64,000 bases of DNA from Acidobacteriaceae bacterium (GTDB lineage: Bacteria > Acidobacteriota > Terriglobia > Terriglobales > Acidobacteriaceae). The stretch covers positions 62,001 to 126,000 of the forward strand of contig JAOAPC010000015.1 in assembly GCA_025462735.1 (NCBI GenBank), in the 5' to 3' direction. The notes beneath the pieces were generated by a model. The model made no database searches, was not told the DNA's origin, and saw nothing but the letters and a program-made list of their open reading frames with translations. A program made the position numbers and the translations under genes. Positions within the stretch are counted from its first letter, which is position 1. The number at the start of each line of letters is the position of its first letter. Shown in pieces: positions 12,335 through 18,973 of this stretch.

Positions 12335-13204
12335 TTACTGTTGGGGCGCTGTGCTGGTGCCGCTGGCGGCCAGCTGCTCGAGATCATTCTTAAGCAGGCT
12401 GACTTCTACACGGCCACCGCTCATGCGCTTCGGCTTCTCGCCATTTTCGGCGGCAGGCGACGGCGCGGGAGCGTTGCCCATACCGAGAACGTAAATCCGG
12501 TAAACCGGGATTTCGTGGTTCTCGACCAAGTAACGCACCACGGCGTCGGCCATCTTGCGCGAAGTGGCAATCGCGGTCTGTCCCTTACCAGAAGAGAAGC
12601 CCTGCACTTCGATGATGTATCCGCGCTGGCTCTTCACCGGCTCGGCCATCTGATCGAGGGCCGACTTCGCGTCCTTGCTCAGGACGGTTTGCCCGGAGCG
12701 GAAGCGAATCTCGGTCTGGTTGGTGGACTTGTACTGATCAATGTTGCTGACTACGGTCTCGACCGTGCTCAGGCGGGTGTTGGCCTGGGTCGCGGTCGTC
12801 TGCGCCTGGGTGGCCTTGTTACCGGCGTCAACTGCATGCTGGTCGGCTTCATTGGCCTTGTTTGAGGCCATCTGAATGCCTTGCTGGGAGCGGGAATCGA
12901 CGTCCTTGATCATCTTCGAGTTCGCGGAGGTGAGCTCATCGAGCTCGTTCACGCGATCACGAATCGGCTGAGTCTGGCGCTGTATATATTTTTTGCGGGC
13001 AAAGGGATTGATCTTGCCCCAGAAGCCCTGGCGGCTTTCATACTGCAAAGGCGCTTTGCCGGTTGCTGTGCCGCCGGAACTGGTGGGTTGAGACGCCGCT
13101 TGCGACGACTGGTCGGTCGGGGTCGAACTCGCCGGCTGCTGGGCAAGCGCCGGGAGAGAGAGTAGGAATGCTACGAACAACGCTACCACTGTGCGATTTC
13201 TCAT
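12335..13204 (-). CDS. OmpA-family outer-membrane/periplasmic protein
   Basis: 289 residues. A signal peptide (MRNRTVVALFVAFLLSLPALAQ) leads to a Ser/Thr/Gln-rich linker and a basic segment (PFARKKYIQRQ). A coiled-coil heptad region spans about 85-150. The OmpA-like peptidoglycan-binding fold follows (TEIRFRSGQTVLSKDAKSALDQM, IEVQGFSSGKG, VYRIYVLGMGN). An ATG lies three codons upstream at 13213, but AGGAGG abuts it with no spacing; the same AGGAGG is 9 bases from 13204, so I chose 13204. The usual peptidoglycan-contacting Asp/Arg pair is only partly kept. Confidence 0.82.
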   Translation of the reverse strand: MRNRTVVALFVAFLLSLPALAQQPASSTPTDQSSQAASQPTSSGGTATGKAPLQYESRQGFWGKINPFARKKYIQRQTQPIRDRVNELDELTSANSKMIKDVDSRSQQGIQMASNKANEADQHAVDAGNKATQAQTTATQANTRLSTVETVVSNIDQYKSTNQTEIRFRSGQTVLSKDAKSALDQMAEPVKSQRGYIIEVQGFSSGKGQTAIATSRKMADAVVRYLVENHEIPVYRIYVLGMGNAPAPSPAAENGEKPKRMSGGRVEVSLLKNDLEQLAASGTSTAPQQ

Positions 13205-13763
13205 TTTTAACATCCTCCTGATTCACTTACTCTGGGGGAGCTGCTGGCCCGGCCATCCGGCTTCGCTCAGGTCAACTCCTCACCGCACGCCATTCGCGGG
13301 CGTGATCGCGATATTGGTGCGTCTTGCAAAACGAAAGCACAGATGGTGGCTCGGCTTGCCCTGAGTAGCGTTGAAGGGAGATTCCCTTCGATTTCGCTCC
13401 AAACGGCTTGTCCGACGCCCTTTTTCATATGCCGGCCAGCGCTGACGCGACGCTGGACCGAAAAACTCGGCGTCAATCCTAAGATGCTGACACCTACTCT
13501 GACGTATATCAACTTCCGTGCCAAAGTGAAGAAAGGCTAAGTTATTGATTTCCAGACCCATTTTAGTCCTTCTGGAAGGCCCCGGAGAGGCTTTCGACGG
13601 TAATTTTGCCGGAGATGTATAAAAAGGTGCTAGGGGAGTGGAACGAAAGTCACCAGGCCGCGATGAGTTTCGTACGCAACATAGGCAAGTCGGCGCAAGT
13701 CCTGGCGGGAGAACGCCCGAAGCGCTGGACCAAATCGGACGTTCCGCATATCCTGTGTCTCCC
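13205..13763. other. Intergenic stretch with no convincing gene
   Basis: 559 bases between the OmpA-like gene and the helicase gene. Open frames here lack Shine-Dalgarno sequences and recognisable protein features. Short imperfect inverted repeats occur (for example GAAGGGA near 13374 with TCCCTTC near 13382). I see no tRNA, promoter or terminator that I could defend. Confidence 0.5.
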
Positions 13764-15821
13764 ATGCCCGCGTATTACCAATCGGGGTTGGGGGCGTTTG
13801 TTACTGAAAATCCCTCCAACATTCTCTGGAAGCTTGCTCAGGCAAATGCTGCCGCGAGATTCCCGCTGACCTCTCAAGCCATCGAAGCGTGGCACGCGCA
13901 GCTCCCTTTCCTGACCACGGGGATTTCCGAATTGCTTCGCGTCCGCCCACAAGCAAAAGAATGGCGAATTCTGCTCGAATATCCTATCCCGATCGTTGGT
14001 AAGCGAATCGACGCCGTTTTGCTCGCGCACAACATCGTCATCGTTATTGAGACAAAAACGGGGCTTAGTCCGACGTCGGCCGCGCGACAGGTAGACGACT
14101 ATGCGTTGAATCTTGCGTGCTTTCATGAGTACAGCCAGCACAGAACTGTCGTGCCGTTAGTTGTGGCGGATTCGCGCGTCGCTTCCAACCGCACCCGAAC
14201 CGAATTCGATAGCTTCATAGAGAAATGCCAATTTGCATCAACGAGCGACCTTGGGCAGGTTTTGGAAGCCCTCTGCGCAGAGTACGTCGACCCAGATGCA
14301 CCGTCGATACAGGCTAGCCAGTGGGATCGCGGAAGGTTCAAGCCAATACCGCCCATCATCGACGCCGCTGTCGCGCTTTATTCTGGGATGGATGTCTTCG
14401 AAATTGGTCATGCGTGCGCAGCTCGCGACGATCTCGACAAGACAACTAATGTTTTGGTGCAAGCTGTCCTTGACGCACGCGCGTCCGGGCAGAAGATAAT
14501 TTGCTTTACGACTGGTGTGCCCGGAGCCGGAAAGACGTTGGTGGGTCTTAACACGGTTCACAGACCGGAAATCAAGGATCTCAGTCTATTTCTTTCTGGT
14601 AACGGCCCCCTCGTGAAAGTGATTCAAGAGGCGCTCGTGCGGGACGTGGTTGAGAGAAGCAGGCGCGACCAGCGGCGCATGACTCGCCGACAGGCAGAAC
14701 TCGAAGTTCAGGCGTTTGTACATAACGTCCATCGCTTTGCTGAACAGTATTACGGCCAGGGACACCAAGAACCGACACAGAAGGTGATTGTCTTCGACGA
14801 AGCGCAAAGAGCTTGGGATGCAGAACAGAACAGGCGGGCGGGTCGTGCTCACGTCTCTGAGCCTGAAATGATGCTGGAGGTTATGGATCGACACGCGGAT
14901 TGGGCAGTGATTGTTGCCCTGATAGGCGGTGGCCAAGAAATTCATCGCGGGGAGGCTGGCCTGGCAGAGTGGGGGCGTGCGCTTGCGCGTTTTCCTCAAT
15001 GGAAAATCCGTGCGTCTTCGTACGTATTGCGGACAAATGGCGCCGAAGGGTTTCGCCTTTTTGAAACCATGGATCCTCACCCTGACAGAACCGTTAAAGT
15101 TGAGTCGCTACACCTGAACGTCTGTACACGATCCATCCGGGCCCAGCGTATTTCCGATTGGGTCGACGCTGTGTTGCGCGGCAACAACAGCGAAGCTGCC
15201 GCAATTGGAAGCAGCATCGATGCCAAGCCGTCTATCACACGAAGTCTGCGCGAGGCGAGAGCTTGGCTGCACGCAAATCGTCGCGGTCGAACCCGGGCCG
15301 GTTTGGTGGCCAGCGCCTCTGCCGCCCGGCTTCGCGTCGATGGGTTGGAACCGACGTTCGATTTTCATCAGAGATTTGACTGGGAACATTGGTTTCTCGA
15401 CATTCACGATTGTTCAGATCCCGAATGCGATCACAAATATTGTAATGACGTTCGAGCTAGCTCGAAGCTAGAAGTGGCCGCAACACAATTCGAAATTCAA
15501 GGCCTTGAACTAGATTGGGTTGGCCTATGTTGGGGTGAAGACCTCGCGTGGGATGGATCAGAATGGGTGTGCCGCCGCTTTAACGACAGACGCTGGAAAC
15601 CGCTCGTGGAGGGTGATCCTCGTCGCGCATATCTAATCAACGCATACAGAGTTCTGATGACGAGGGCACGTCAAGGGATGGTGATCTACATTCCGCACCC
15701 GGATAAAGGAGACCAATCACGTCTCCACCAAGAACTTGATGCCACCGCGGAATTTCTGATCAGTTGCGGTGCGTCAGAGCTGCGGAAAACGGCTTTCGCC
15801 GACGTCACGGCTGCTCGCTAG
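13764..15821 (+). CDS. PD-(D/E)XK nuclease-like / DUF2075 (Schlafen group 3-like) helicase fusion
   Basis: 685 residues. The N-terminal part (about 1-160) shows a nuclease-like core: Glu73, Asp83 in GKRIDAVLL, and Glu96-x-Lys98 in VIVIETKTG. From about 240 comes an SF1-type helicase of the DUF2075 family: Walker A GVPGAGKT (251-258), Walker B/DEAQ VIVFDEAQ (341-348), LIGGGQEIHRGE, and motif VI-like YRVLMTRARQG near the end. CNDVR and DCSDPECDHKYC form a Cys/His-rich patch that may bind zinc. I start at the ATG 13764 (MPAYYQSGLG), the usual family N-terminus; the frame is open 42 codons upstream. The role is probably nucleic-acid processing or phage defence; this is inference. Confidence 0.8.
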   Translation: MPAYYQSGLGAFVTENPSNILWKLAQANAAARFPLTSQAIEAWHAQLPFLTTGISELLRVRPQAKEWRILLEYPIPIVGKRIDAVLLAHNIVIVIETKTGLSPTSAARQVDDYALNLACFHEYSQHRTVVPLVVADSRVASNRTRTEFDSFIEKCQFASTSDLGQVLEALCAEYVDPDAPSIQASQWDRGRFKPIPPIIDAAVALYSGMDVFEIGHACAARDDLDKTTNVLVQAVLDARASGQKIICFTTGVPGAGKTLVGLNTVHRPEIKDLSLFLSGNGPLVKVIQEALVRDVVERSRRDQRRMTRRQAELEVQAFVHNVHRFAEQYYGQGHQEPTQKVIVFDEAQRAWDAEQNRRAGRAHVSEPEMMLEVMDRHADWAVIVALIGGGQEIHRGEAGLAEWGRALARFPQWKIRASSYVLRTNGAEGFRLFETMDPHPDRTVKVESLHLNVCTRSIRAQRISDWVDAVLRGNNSEAAAIGSSIDAKPSITRSLREARAWLHANRRGRTRAGLVASASAARLRVDGLEPTFDFHQRFDWEHWFLDIHDCSDPECDHKYCNDVRASSKLEVAATQFEIQGLELDWVGLCWGEDLAWDGSEWVCRRFNDRRWKPLVEGDPRRAYLINAYRVLMTRARQGMVIYIPHPDKGDQSRLHQELDATAEFLISCGASELRKTAFADVTAAR

Positions 15822-15975
15822 TTGGAGCTGCTCGCCCTTCGAGCGCGGACATGTCGTCTAGGTCAGTGATCTGATCAAAGCTCGCCCCTAGATTTAGCAT
15901 TCTGACAGCGTGTTCAACCGCTTCTTCCGGGGTATCCCCGGCGGCTTGAATAGTCAACTTATATTCCTTTGACAT
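15805..15975 (-). CDS. Small acidic protein, 56 aa, convergent with the helicase gene
   Basis: The protein begins MSKEYKLTIQAAGDTPEEAV and ends PTSEQP. It overlaps the 3' end of the helicase gene by 17 bases on the opposite strand. A GGGA lies 7 bases upstream of its ATG. The shape (short beta strand, then an amphipathic helix EEAVEHAVRML, then an acidic tail) resembles small HicB-like or double-stranded-beta-helix regulators, but I cannot name a family. Codon use looks coding. An antitoxin or inhibitor role for the adjacent nuclease-helicase is speculation. Confidence 0.55.
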   Translation of the reverse strand: MSKEYKLTIQAAGDTPEEAVEHAVRMLNLGASFDQITDLDDMSALEGRAAPTSEQP

Positions 15976-16257
15976 TGTTGTTCCCTTTTCTGAACTGGCG
16001 AGCAGGTGCTCGGGTCAAGCCCTGACGGTGACATCGGCAAGTTTTCTCTACTCTTTAGGTGCTTGCGACAATATCCGATGAATTTAGATCGATTAAGGCT
16101 GGGCTGAGCGCCTCGCGAAACACGGTACGCCCACAGAACTCCCTATTACCCCCGTTCACCGTGCGCATCCTCGCTCAGGGTAAAATAGGCAGAAGCACCC
16201 ACCGTGAGCGGTTCAGCATCCAATCGCTATGGCCTTGGGAGTTCACACAGGTATTTC

Positions 16258-18465
16258 ATGAAAAGTCTCTACGCCCCCCTTCTTCTGCTAAGCGCTTGCC
16301 TCGCTTTTGGCCAGCAACCGGCGTCATCTCCTGAAACTCGGAACCCTGGAAATCAGAATCCGGAGAATCAGAGTCCGGAAAATCAGAGTCCGCAAAACCG
16401 GAATTCGGCAAGTCCGAAATCGGCGACCCCGAAATCGCAAAGTTCCAAGCCGGACAATTCCAAATCCGCCGCAACCGCGCCCGACAAAGCCAAGGCCGAC
16501 GACTCCGCTCCGCGCAACCTCAATAAAGCTGCCGCCTATTACCACTTCACCATGGCCCACATGTATGAAGAAGAAATGGCGGTGTACGGACGCAGCGAGT
16601 TGATGACCAAGGCCATTCAGGAATACCGCCTGGCGATCGAAGCCGATCCGACCTCGCAGTATTTGACCTCTGGCCTGGCGGAACTTTATGCGCGCACTGG
16701 CCGAATCCGCGACGCGGTTGCTGAGGCGCAGGAGATTCTGCAGCGCGATCCCAACAATTTGGAAGCTCACCGCCTGCTCGGCCACATTTATTTGCGTTCT
16801 CTGGGTGACATGCAGGGCGGCAGCGGCTCCGACAACGTGCTCAAGCTGGCGATCCAGCAATACGAAGAGATTGTGAAGCTAGATCCTTCGAGCGCGGACG
16901 ATCACATCATGCTTGGCCGGCTTTACCACGCCGACAATCAGACCAAAAAGGCTGAAGACGAAGAAAAGACCGCGGTCAAGCTGGCGCCCGATTCCGAAGA
17001 AGCCGTGACCTCGCTGGCCATGCTCTACAACGAAGAGGGCGATTCCGCGAAGGCGGCGGACACTTTGAGTTCGGTCCCCGAGGGCCGGCGTTCGGCGAAG
17101 CTTTACGCGGCGCTCGGTGACACCTACGACCAGCAGAAGAATTACAAGAAGGCGATTGAGGCTTACCAGCATGCCATTGCGCTGGACCGCGATAATCTTG
17201 ACGCGATTCGTGGCCTGGCTGGGAGCCTGGAAAAAGACGGCCAGACCGACAAGGCGCTCGAGCAGTTCAAGATCATCGCCGATGCTAATCCCGAAGATGC
17301 GCGGACCTATATCAGCATGGGCGAGATTTACCGGCGCCGGGGCAATCTCGATCTCGCGCTGCAGAACCTGAAAAAAGCGCAATCGATGGTGCAGGATTCG
17401 GAGCAGGTCTCTTACGATCTGGCGACGATTTACCAGATTCAAGGCCGCTACGATGACGCGATTGAGACGCTACAAGATTTACTGAAGAAGACCGAGAAGG
17501 CGGACGGAAAGTATTCGCAGGAAGAAAAGGATAACCGGGGCATCTTCCTGGAGCGGCTGGGCTCAGCTTACGTTGATAACAACAACGAGGCGGCGGCGAT
17601 CGAGACTTTCCAAAAGTTGTTGACTTTGGGAGATGACAACGCCGAGCGCGGTTACGGCGCCATCATCGACACCTACCGCGAGAACAAGGAATGGCAGAAG
17701 GCCACCGATGTAGCTCGCGAAGCGACCCAGAAACTCCCGAACAAACGCCACTTGAAATTGGTCTATGCCGGCCAGATTGCCGACATGGGCCAGCCCGACG
17801 AGGGCCTGCGCCAAGTGAAGGCGTTGCTGAACGGCACCCCAGAAGATCGCGAGGTGTACGTTGCGCTCGCCAACATGTACAGCCGGCTTAAGCGCTGGTC
17901 CGATGCCGAAGCCGCGCTCGACAAAGCTGAGCAGCTTGCCACCAAGCCGGAAGAAAAACAAAACATCGAATTCCTGCGCGCCGCAAATTCGGAGCGCCAG
18001 AAGAAATATGACGAGGCGGAAGCGACTTTCCGCAAGATCCTGACTGAGAGTCCCGATAACGCTGCGGTGCTGAACTATCTCGGCTATATGCTGGCCGACC
18101 ACAATATGAAGCTCGATGACGCCATGGCCATGATCAAGAAGGCGGTCGATCTTGAACCGGCGAACGGCGCGTACCTCGACTCACTCGGCTGGGCATATTT
18201 CAAACTTGGCAAATACGATCTGGCGGAGAACAACCTGACCAAAGCTTCGCAGCACATGGGCGCCGATCCTACTGTGCAGGAGCACCTGGGAGATCTCTAC
18301 CAGAAGACCGGACGACTTAAGCTTGCTGCCACCCACTGGGAGCGCGCGCTGGAAGAATGGAACAAGACCGTTGCCCCGGAAGTCGATCAGGAAGAGCAGG
18401 CCAAAGTACAGAAGAAGCTGGAAACGGCCAAGGTCCGGCTAGCGAAGGAACAGGAAAGCAAGTAA
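16258..18465 (+). CDS. Large TPR protein, probable exported or lipoprotein
   Basis: 735 residues. MKSLYAPLLLLSACLAFGQQ contains a possible lipobox (LSAC, Cys14); cleavage at AFG-QQ by signal peptidase I is the alternative. Residues about 25-85 are a low-complexity Asn/Pro/Ser/Lys linker with a repeated NPENQSPENQ unit. After that come some 14-16 TPR units to about residue 700 (for example AYYHFTMAHMYEEEM, AAYVDSLGWAYFKLGKYDLAE-like segments). The start at 16258 is preferred over an upstream start at 16204 because it opens the signal peptide and has AGG 7 bases ahead. Large TPR lipoproteins of this kind support envelope assembly or secretion; the partner is unknown. Confidence 0.85.
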   Translation: MKSLYAPLLLLSACLAFGQQPASSPETRNPGNQNPENQSPENQSPQNRNSASPKSATPKSQSSKPDNSKSAATAPDKAKADDSAPRNLNKAAAYYHFTMAHMYEEEMAVYGRSELMTKAIQEYRLAIEADPTSQYLTSGLAELYARTGRIRDAVAEAQEILQRDPNNLEAHRLLGHIYLRSLGDMQGGSGSDNVLKLAIQQYEEIVKLDPSSADDHIMLGRLYHADNQTKKAEDEEKTAVKLAPDSEEAVTSLAMLYNEEGDSAKAADTLSSVPEGRRSAKLYAALGDTYDQQKNYKKAIEAYQHAIALDRDNLDAIRGLAGSLEKDGQTDKALEQFKIIADANPEDARTYISMGEIYRRRGNLDLALQNLKKAQSMVQDSEQVSYDLATIYQIQGRYDDAIETLQDLLKKTEKADGKYSQEEKDNRGIFLERLGSAYVDNNNEAAAIETFQKLLTLGDDNAERGYGAIIDTYRENKEWQKATDVAREATQKLPNKRHLKLVYAGQIADMGQPDEGLRQVKALLNGTPEDREVYVALANMYSRLKRWSDAEAALDKAEQLATKPEEKQNIEFLRAANSERQKKYDEAEATFRKILTESPDNAAVLNYLGYMLADHNMKLDDAMAMIKKAVDLEPANGAYLDSLGWAYFKLGKYDLAENNLTKASQHMGADPTVQEHLGDLYQKTGRLKLAATHWERALEEWNKTVAPEVDQEEQAKVQKKLETAKVRLAKEQESK

Positions 18466-18580: not shown

Positions 18581-18973
18581 CTACGCGGAATAACCTATCG
18601 TGGCCGGCGTACTGTCGAACTCCACAACTGACACATCATCCGGAACACGCAGCCCAGCTTGACGAATTGCGCTCATGGCGAGCATGAAATTCTCGGCGTC
18701 CATGATCACCAACGCGCCTCGCGTGCTTCCGGAGTCAAACGAATCGCCGTTTGGAACGGTTTGTCCAATGCGCAGCGCTCGCGCCAGCGGATTTGGTTGG
18801 TAGTTCAAGTCGCGGGCGGCGGCTACGATGCGGTCTTTTGTGGCTTGCGGAATACGCAGGGCCCCAGGCGTGTCGTTTAAGACTGCTGAAATTGTTCCTG
18901 GGGTGAGCCCGAGATGATCGGCGACAGTTCTGAGGGTTGCTTTTACCGACTTACTGCTCTTCTTATTGTCCAT
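18581..18973 (-). CDS. LacI-type regulator stub with internal deletion
   Basis: 130 residues, against about 335 for a full LacI/GalR repressor. The helix-turn-helix and hinge are intact (ATLRTVADHLGLTPGTISAVLND, then IPQATKDRIVAAARDLNYQPNPLARAL). The sequence then jumps to what is normally the distal effector domain (RGALVIMDAENFMLAMSAIRQAGLRVPDDVSVVEFD). About 200 residues of the sugar-binding domain are missing with the frame kept. It starts at ATG with GAGGAGA 9 bases upstream. It could be a constitutive DNA binder or a decaying gene. Targets are unknown. Confidence 0.75.
   Translation of the reverse strand: MDNKKSSKSVKATLRTVADHLGLTPGTISAVLNDTPGALRIPQATKDRIVAAARDLNYQPNPLARALRIGQTVPNGDSFDSGSTRGALVIMDAENFMLAMSAIRQAGLRVPDDVSVVEFDSTPATIGYSA

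Follow-up and report, generated by a model that had tools for sequence, protein, structure and literature searches.

Whether a bacterial gene that joins a nuclease to a helicase protects its host against foreign nucleic acid, or serves the cell or a mobile element in some other way, is the question raised by a 685-residue protein encoded in a stretch of 64,000 nucleotides from an Acidobacteriaceae bacterium, referred to here as the window. An earlier note on this DNA had proposed a PD-(D/E)XK nuclease fused to an SF1-type helicase and had considered it a candidate defence gene on an accessory cassette. We have followed up this proposal by domain and structure prediction, by comparison with homologous loci and by a survey of their surroundings.

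The gene and its family

The gene lies where the earlier note had put it (Table 1), as an intact open reading frame. Its start codon is in line with several homologues whose alignment begins at their own first residue, those at loci L047, L048, L050 and L039 among them. Its neighbours are TypA/BipA, an OmpA-family protein and, across the gene from these two, a TPR protein. The PADLOC model PDC-S41 (PDLC05014) matches the protein over its full length, aligned to profile positions 3-654 of 657, and the same model is matched by 28/28 sequences of our family alignment, i.e., the window protein and 27 full-length proteins from other genomes of its phylum; the contig-edge fragments L013, L034 and L037 were removed before counting, and the broken copies L001, L002, L049, L063 and L068 were kept out. 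With this full-length match the status of candidate defence gene is already catalogued, PADLOC giving PDC-S41 as a profile without description. NCBIfam had no match to the protein at E up to 1, a sequence search of solved structures with the protein alone found none, and the same search with the family alignment yielded only partial matches in the P-loop region, Schlafens included, at E 0.011 or worse.

We know of no defence phenotype for PDC-S41, and the full text of open-licence papers, supplements excluded, held none that uses the name 'PDC-S41'; nor did our literature search find a paper joining 'DUF2075' with 'defence' or with 'Schlafen'. The excerpts of PMC13092281 and PMC12255303 contain nothing on the family. 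PDCs are described, in the excerpt of a paper that cites a 2024 preprint (PMC12988326), as single-gene putative defence candidates from 'guilt-by-embedding', mostly unvalidated, and some of them are called unpublished candidates in part of another (PMC11811056).

Table 1. Features of the locus, in coordinates of the window
Feature	Position	Strand	Evidence
PDC-S41 family nuclease-helicase gene	13764..15821	+	ORF of 685 aa, ATG at 13764, stop ending 15821; PADLOC PDC-S41, E 1.9e-205, residues 2-674
N-terminal PD-(D/E)XK nuclease domain (predicted), residues 1-175, boundary approximate	13764..14288	+	AlphaFold2 model of residues 1-192; Can2 Z 10.4
Nuclease-core codons E72, R81, D83, E96, K98, Q109, Y113	13977..14102	+	Invariant in 28/28 full-length homologues
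SLFN-g3 (DUF2075) SF1 helicase domain (predicted), residues 246-644	14499..15695	+	PF09848; Foldseek; VIA
Cys/His patch C550-x4-C555-x-H557-x2-C560, confined to a sub-lineage; may be a zinc knuckle	15411..15443	+	Spacing identical in window protein, L001 and L002
Small convergent gene, 56 aa, no sign of partnership	15805..15975	-	Homologue in G433; codon-position differences
Presumed insert, lacking DNA similarity to the stretches of the same genus compared with it; borders approximate	13655..16175	.	Flank similarity ends 13654, resumes 16176

A nuclease with an invariant active site

The acidic pair and ExK of the PD-(D/E)XK superfamily are present in the N-terminal half as E72, D83, E96 and K98, joined by Q109-x3-Y113, and the invariant N-terminal positions of the alignment further include W43, P76 and R81. 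This conservation, like the helicase match described below, goes far past what chance would give. The earlier note had read Asp83 and Glu96-Thr-Lys98 exactly; its 'Glu73' was off by one, the acidic residue being Glu72 and residue 73 a tyrosine. PD-(D/E)XK enzymes show this same succession of E, D, ExK and, on the following helix, Q-x3-Y, the last of these being frequent in RecB/Cas4-type members. The active site is complete also in relatives on IMG/VR contigs whose nuclease parts are 17-29% identical.

Modelling residues 1-192 with AlphaFold2 from 11 sequences (the window protein and those of related loci) gave a mean pLDDT of 91.1 and a pTM of 0.89, and both this model and its VIA matches exhibit the core fold of the superfamily. 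In Foldseek the best solved matches were Cdn1, Can2 and VC1899 (E 5.5e-4 to 8.2e-3), with low TM-scores, the best being 0.46 by query length, and the eight best were all CARF-linked CRISPR ancillary nucleases. The ten best VIA rows were likewise chains of Can2, Cdn1 and VC1899 at Z 8.7-10.4 (Can2 first, with an rmsd of 4.7 over 149 residues; VC1899 at Z 9.2), followed by a Pyrococcus repair endonuclease (8.0), EndoMS (7.6), another Can2 (7.1) and, lower, restriction enzymes; some top matches in a viral structure library are named PD-(D/E)XK nucleases. We conclude that residues 1-175 form a predicted PD-(D/E)XK nuclease domain with a complete, invariant active site. This bears out the nuclease core that had been claimed, and the structure prediction suggested as its check has returned a nuclease fold. 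Pfam gave a sub-threshold hint of the NERD nuclease domain (PF08378) at residues 62-99, an assignment that we rejected at 17.3 bits against a gathering cut-off of 22.1 (residues 1-192).

A Schlafen-type helicase with a lineage-specific insertion

Pfam's one strong domain in the protein is SLFN-g3_helicase, at 4e-68 and 230.7 bits against a gathering cut-off of 24, a family formerly called DUF2075. Its motifs are Walker A GVPGAGKT (251-258), DEAQ (345-348), GGGQE (388-392), QGLELD (579-584) and YRVLMTRAR (motif VI, 628-636); invariant in 28/28 are the ATPase-motif residues G251, K257, T258, D345, E346, Q348 and R456 together with Q579, G580, E582, D584, R634 and R636. The model of the full-length protein is moderate (pLDDT 70.6, pTM 0.65, residues 520-581 below 50). 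Human SLFN11 leads the whole-chain Foldseek matches at E 2e-8 and a TM-score of 0.29, whole-model TM-scores being low at about 0.3, and SLFN11 and SLFN14 make up the three best. VIA on the same model aligns DSH9, UvrD, Dda, HelD, SLFN11 and Pif1 at Z 10.8 to 12.5, with UvrD (12.4) and Dda (12.2) above SLFN11 (11.0). Residues 246-644 are, by prediction, a complete Schlafen-group-3 SF1 ATPase/helicase, as the earlier note had held for the part behind the nuclease.

The same note had drawn attention to a Cys/His patch, and this too is present, limited however to the window protein and to L001 and L002, the closest relatives that were found. Since position 560 is a gap in 27/27 other aligned members, the patch is ruled out as a hallmark of the family; its appearance is that of a segment inserted recently between helicase motifs, which may plausibly form a zinc knuckle, and it falls in the low-confidence part of the model.

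A patchy, selected and sometimes broken gene

The gene is found in 0/7 other genomes of the genus (65-99% complete), in 9/40 other relatives (10/41 counting its own genome) and in 1 of 14 named control genomes. In the phylum sample, 25/396 genomes match at 1e-30, its own counted, which is a lower bound because a single protein served as query. This patchy distribution sets aside universal conservation as a core gene and agrees with the accessory status previously assigned to it.

At 33 loci, namely the window, L001, L002 and 30 fetched loci, the gene lies inside a contig; it is intact at 28 of them and broken or truncated at five, by frame breaks at L001, L063 and L068, an internal stop at L049 and the loss of the N-terminal half at L002. 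Faulty assembly may account for some of the breaks where the genome is a draft; L063 belongs to a one-contig genome. Compared with L002, the differences at first, second and third codon positions are 0.22/0.14/0.63, and compared with the C-terminal part of L001 they are 0.28/0.21/0.63, values that show, at the level of codons, purifying selection on the gene, both copies compared being broken ones.

Homologues occur on mobile DNA as well: on 5/72,556 plasmid records (three with homologues covering 80% or more of the query), on 1/50,697 phage records and, in IMG/VR, at no fewer than nine loci (>=9) plus four further contigs. The third-position GC of the gene (0.56) is the third lowest among the 47 ORFs taken as window genes. 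In the tree the window gene groups with L001 and L002 (support 100/100) and other copies from the same bacterial family are placed elsewhere; because branches are long, deeper placement is unsure, and we therefore claim no number of transfers.

A presumed insert and a small convergent gene

The left flank resembles that of genome G001, with 85% DNA similarity from 12335 to 13654, where the similarity stops; on the right, before the TPR gene, similarity resumes at 16176 (G002, G003, G006) or 16193 (G004). The 2.5 kb in between hold the family gene and a small ORF. This stretch has no long repeats, the short ones seen being probably due to chance, and no recombinase ORF was seen in it; the window has no tRNA. 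No compared relative has both flanks joined: the left one is represented in G001, the right one in G002, G003, G004 and G006, and G002 and G004 differ in the layout of the flanking genes. We therefore infer, rather than observe, an insertion, with borders that are approximate because non-coding DNA diverges fast. The gene itself was probably acquired horizontally.

The TPR and OmpA genes of G002 and G004 are co-oriented, OmpA being the downstream one; in the window (12335-18465) OmpA is found upstream and reversed, and the family gene separates it from TPR. From this difference in order it follows that a local rearrangement accompanies the family gene. Farther on, at 18584-18973 (-), a 130-residue LacI-type protein, with a DNA-binding head and a short piece of sugar-binding domain, is probably an internally deleted remnant.

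The small convergent gene overlaps the 3' tail of the family gene by 17 bases and, judging from codon-level comparison with its homologue, is a real coding gene. That homologue, in G433 of another genus, is 66% identical over 35 aa and is the one other found among 300 family-level genomes; across 33 codons the two differ at 6 first, 7 second and 20 third positions. A plausible ribosome-binding site precedes the small gene. Elsewhere in the genus it is unmatched (7 genomes searched), and the remaining 32 loci of the family yield no significant match either (L001 having only about 140 bases downstream); the family gene, for its part, was not found in G433 in a search without positive control. 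We therefore rejected a role as partner or antitoxin, and of the earlier description the gene on the tail survives, whereas its membership of an accessory cassette finds no support.

No clear defence island

A survey of homologue neighbourhoods for defence islands was made at 20 of the 30 fetched loci, with the six nearest ORFs of each (120 in all), control stretches from those 20 genomes serving as comparison (117 ORFs, 3 of 120 having been dropped). ORFs overlapping the family gene by more than 100 bases were excluded, which removed a tandem nuclease-helicase at L064; L002 and L058 lie outside the set. At 1e-10, PADLOC matched 76 families near the gene and 60 in the control, counting families rather than ORFs, and PD-T4-6 kinase-type models abound among the best 25 of each. 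DpdE/ZorD models (SNF2 helicases) were matched by two near ORFs at that threshold and are absent from the best 25 of the 60 control families. Beyond kinase-type models, matches at 1e-70 comprised DpdE/ZorD, MzaE and mad6 in the near set and Cas10c and an RtcR-CARF regulator in the control, one ORF per model in either case. Helicase, SNF2 and kinase domains lead the Pfam tally of the near set, among the best 25 of 94 families. In this small sample there is no clear excess of defence genes over the control, and it lends a defence-island setting no clear support.

The remaining 56 ORFs of the window match 8 PADLOC families at 1e-10, one ORF each: PDC-M37B (two models), DolB, QueC, mad2, ZorB (two models) and a phospholipase effector. 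The ZorB matches are likely caused by the OmpA-type protein, and we take none of the eight as evidence of a second defence system.

Individual loci are nonetheless worth recording. The closest relative found (L002:10022-11997), the truncated copy, has a PDC-S11 (DUF4268) gene (E 3.6e-117) as its convergent neighbour, one case that speaks for defence. At L064:6854-8785 (G156), directly upstream of the family gene, is a second protein with E, RLD, ELK and Q-x3-Y followed by an SLFN-g3 helicase (4.3e-90), and a protein 61% identical to it lies about 9 kb from the family gene at L058:73-1839 (G267); these are possibly paired nuclease-helicases.

Function

Taking these results together, we consider it reasonably probable that the gene is a single-gene, probably horizontally acquired PDC-S41 nuclease-helicase acting against foreign nucleic acid, with defence as its likeliest role. 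We hold this because of the full-length PDC-S41 match, the nuclease fold, the invariant active site, the complete helicase and the non-core distribution; because of the low GC3, the stretch without counterpart in the genus, the purifying selection and the homologues on plasmids, a phage record and IMG/VR contigs; and because of the broken loci, the weak Nhi and AbiO matches of family members and the PDC-S11 gene beside L002. Counted against it are the neighbourhoods without clear enrichment, the lack of a convincing second defence system in the window, the missing Nhi match of the window protein, the low Foldseek TM-scores and the missing joined empty site. The earlier proposal of a candidate defence gene accordingly keeps its nuclease-helicase fusion, to which the PDC-S41 candidate listing is added, and draws no clear support from an island setting. 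If the gene is indeed defensive, the ATPase would load on foreign nucleic acid or move along it, the likeliest substrates being intermediates of DNA replication or recombination from an infecting phage or plasmid. It would feed or gate this substrate to the fused nuclease, which would nick or degrade the target, in a mode resembling that reported for Nhi.

The alignment of the helicase half with UvrD, Pif1 and RecD2-type enzymes, and of the nuclease half with the Pyrococcus repair endonuclease and EndoMS, would also suit an accessory enzyme of DNA repair or recombination, whose helicase opens damaged or stalled DNA for the nuclease to trim and from which the host chromosome benefits; neighbours without clear defence-gene enrichment count for it as well. 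We nevertheless think it unlikely that repair is the role of a gene so patchy and so often broken (5/33), with homologues on plasmids and phage-type contigs and with CRISPR ancillary nucleases as the eight best Foldseek matches of its nuclease domain. PD-(D/E)XK enzymes have DNA as their substrate in most cases, and this, like the placing of the DNA helicases UvrD and Dda over SLFN11 by VIA, makes it improbable that the protein is an abortive-infection effector on RNA, with the Schlafen-type ATPase as sensor of an infection cue and a nuclease that cuts RNA, or RNA and DNA, until growth stops; such an effector would nonetheless fit the SLFN11 and SLFN14 structures at the head of the whole-chain Foldseek matches, and for Can2, whose nuclease fold is the nearest, cleavage of DNA as well as RNA is reported in the part of the paper considered (PMC7969007).

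There is, finally, a slim chance that the gene was left in the chromosome by a mobile element which it served, be it in competition with other elements, in anti-defence or in replication. The foreign-looking stretch with no other genes of known function and the homologues on plasmids and IMG/VR contigs point that way; the absence of long repeats at the stretch, of tRNA in the window and of any recombinase ORF seen speaks against it, as does purifying selection relative to related chromosomal copies. Returning to defence, a more specific version of it, which we regard as doubtful though worth stating, is that PDC-S41 constitutes a one-protein immune system apart from Nhi, in which a Can2/NucS-like nicking nuclease would be gated by a Schlafen-type ATPase recognizing phage replication or repair intermediates, the zinc knuckle inserted in the window sub-lineage adding or retuning a sensor.

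What is new here is the nuclease assignment, the absence from the 7 other genomes of the genus, the purifying selection, the broken copies at 5/33 loci and the recognition of the Cys/His patch as a sub-lineage insertion. PDC-S41, whose anatomy is clearer here than in the catalogue, thereby gains an active-site map (E72, D83, E96, K98, Q109 and Y113 in the nuclease, K257 in the motor), a nuclease fold predicted with confidence, and evidence of an accessory gene kept under selection, and the three together make a decisive mutant test simple. Were the gene defensive, it would add another compact nuclease-helicase of Nhi-like kind and a bacterial user of a Schlafen-type helicase; were the one-protein immune system real, bacterial single-gene immunity would be tied to the helicase half of the animal antiviral Schlafens.

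Comparison with known systems

Within PDC-S41, the window protein and two relatives differ from the rest in carrying the extra Cys/His insertion. Nhi and AbiO, which confer nuclease-helicase immunity through a single protein, share with it the plan of nuclease plus helicase in one chain, and their models are weakly matched by members of the 28-row alignment at E up to 0.01 (Nhi by 17/28, best 4.6e-6; AbiO by 18/28, best 3.9e-7); the window protein, in contrast, fits the PDC-S41 model far better, its match to AbiO being confined to residues 70-112 at E 0.016. Membership of Nhi is ruled out by the lack of a match to that model at E up to 1, so that the protein is at most Nhi-like in its working and should not be filed as Nhi. 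In a phylum survey in which no positive control rang, the Nhi model was matched in 21/149 genomes at 1e-5, all 23 listed matches being partial and within profile positions 168-415 of 470.

Can2, Cdn1 and VC1899, CARF-linked nucleases mostly of type III CRISPR, offer the nearest solved folds of the nuclease domain, Can2 being described in the excerpt cited above as a PD-ExK nuclease whose nuclease domain resembles EndoMS (PMC7969007). There, however, the partner of the nuclease is a cyclic-nucleotide sensor (CARF), whereas in the window protein it is a helicase: the nuclease domain begins at residue 1, neither Pfam nor PADLOC finds a CARF domain at E up to 1, and with no CARF ahead of the nuclease and a helicase behind it, membership of the Can2/Card1 family is ruled out. 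The animal Schlafens SLFN11 and SLFN14 share the other half of the protein, as indicated by the Pfam SLFN-g3 domain and by SLFN11 as the top Foldseek match, albeit at a low TM-score; they differ in the nuclease half, which in the window protein is of the PD-(D/E)XK type, whereas the Schlafen nuclease core has a different fold.
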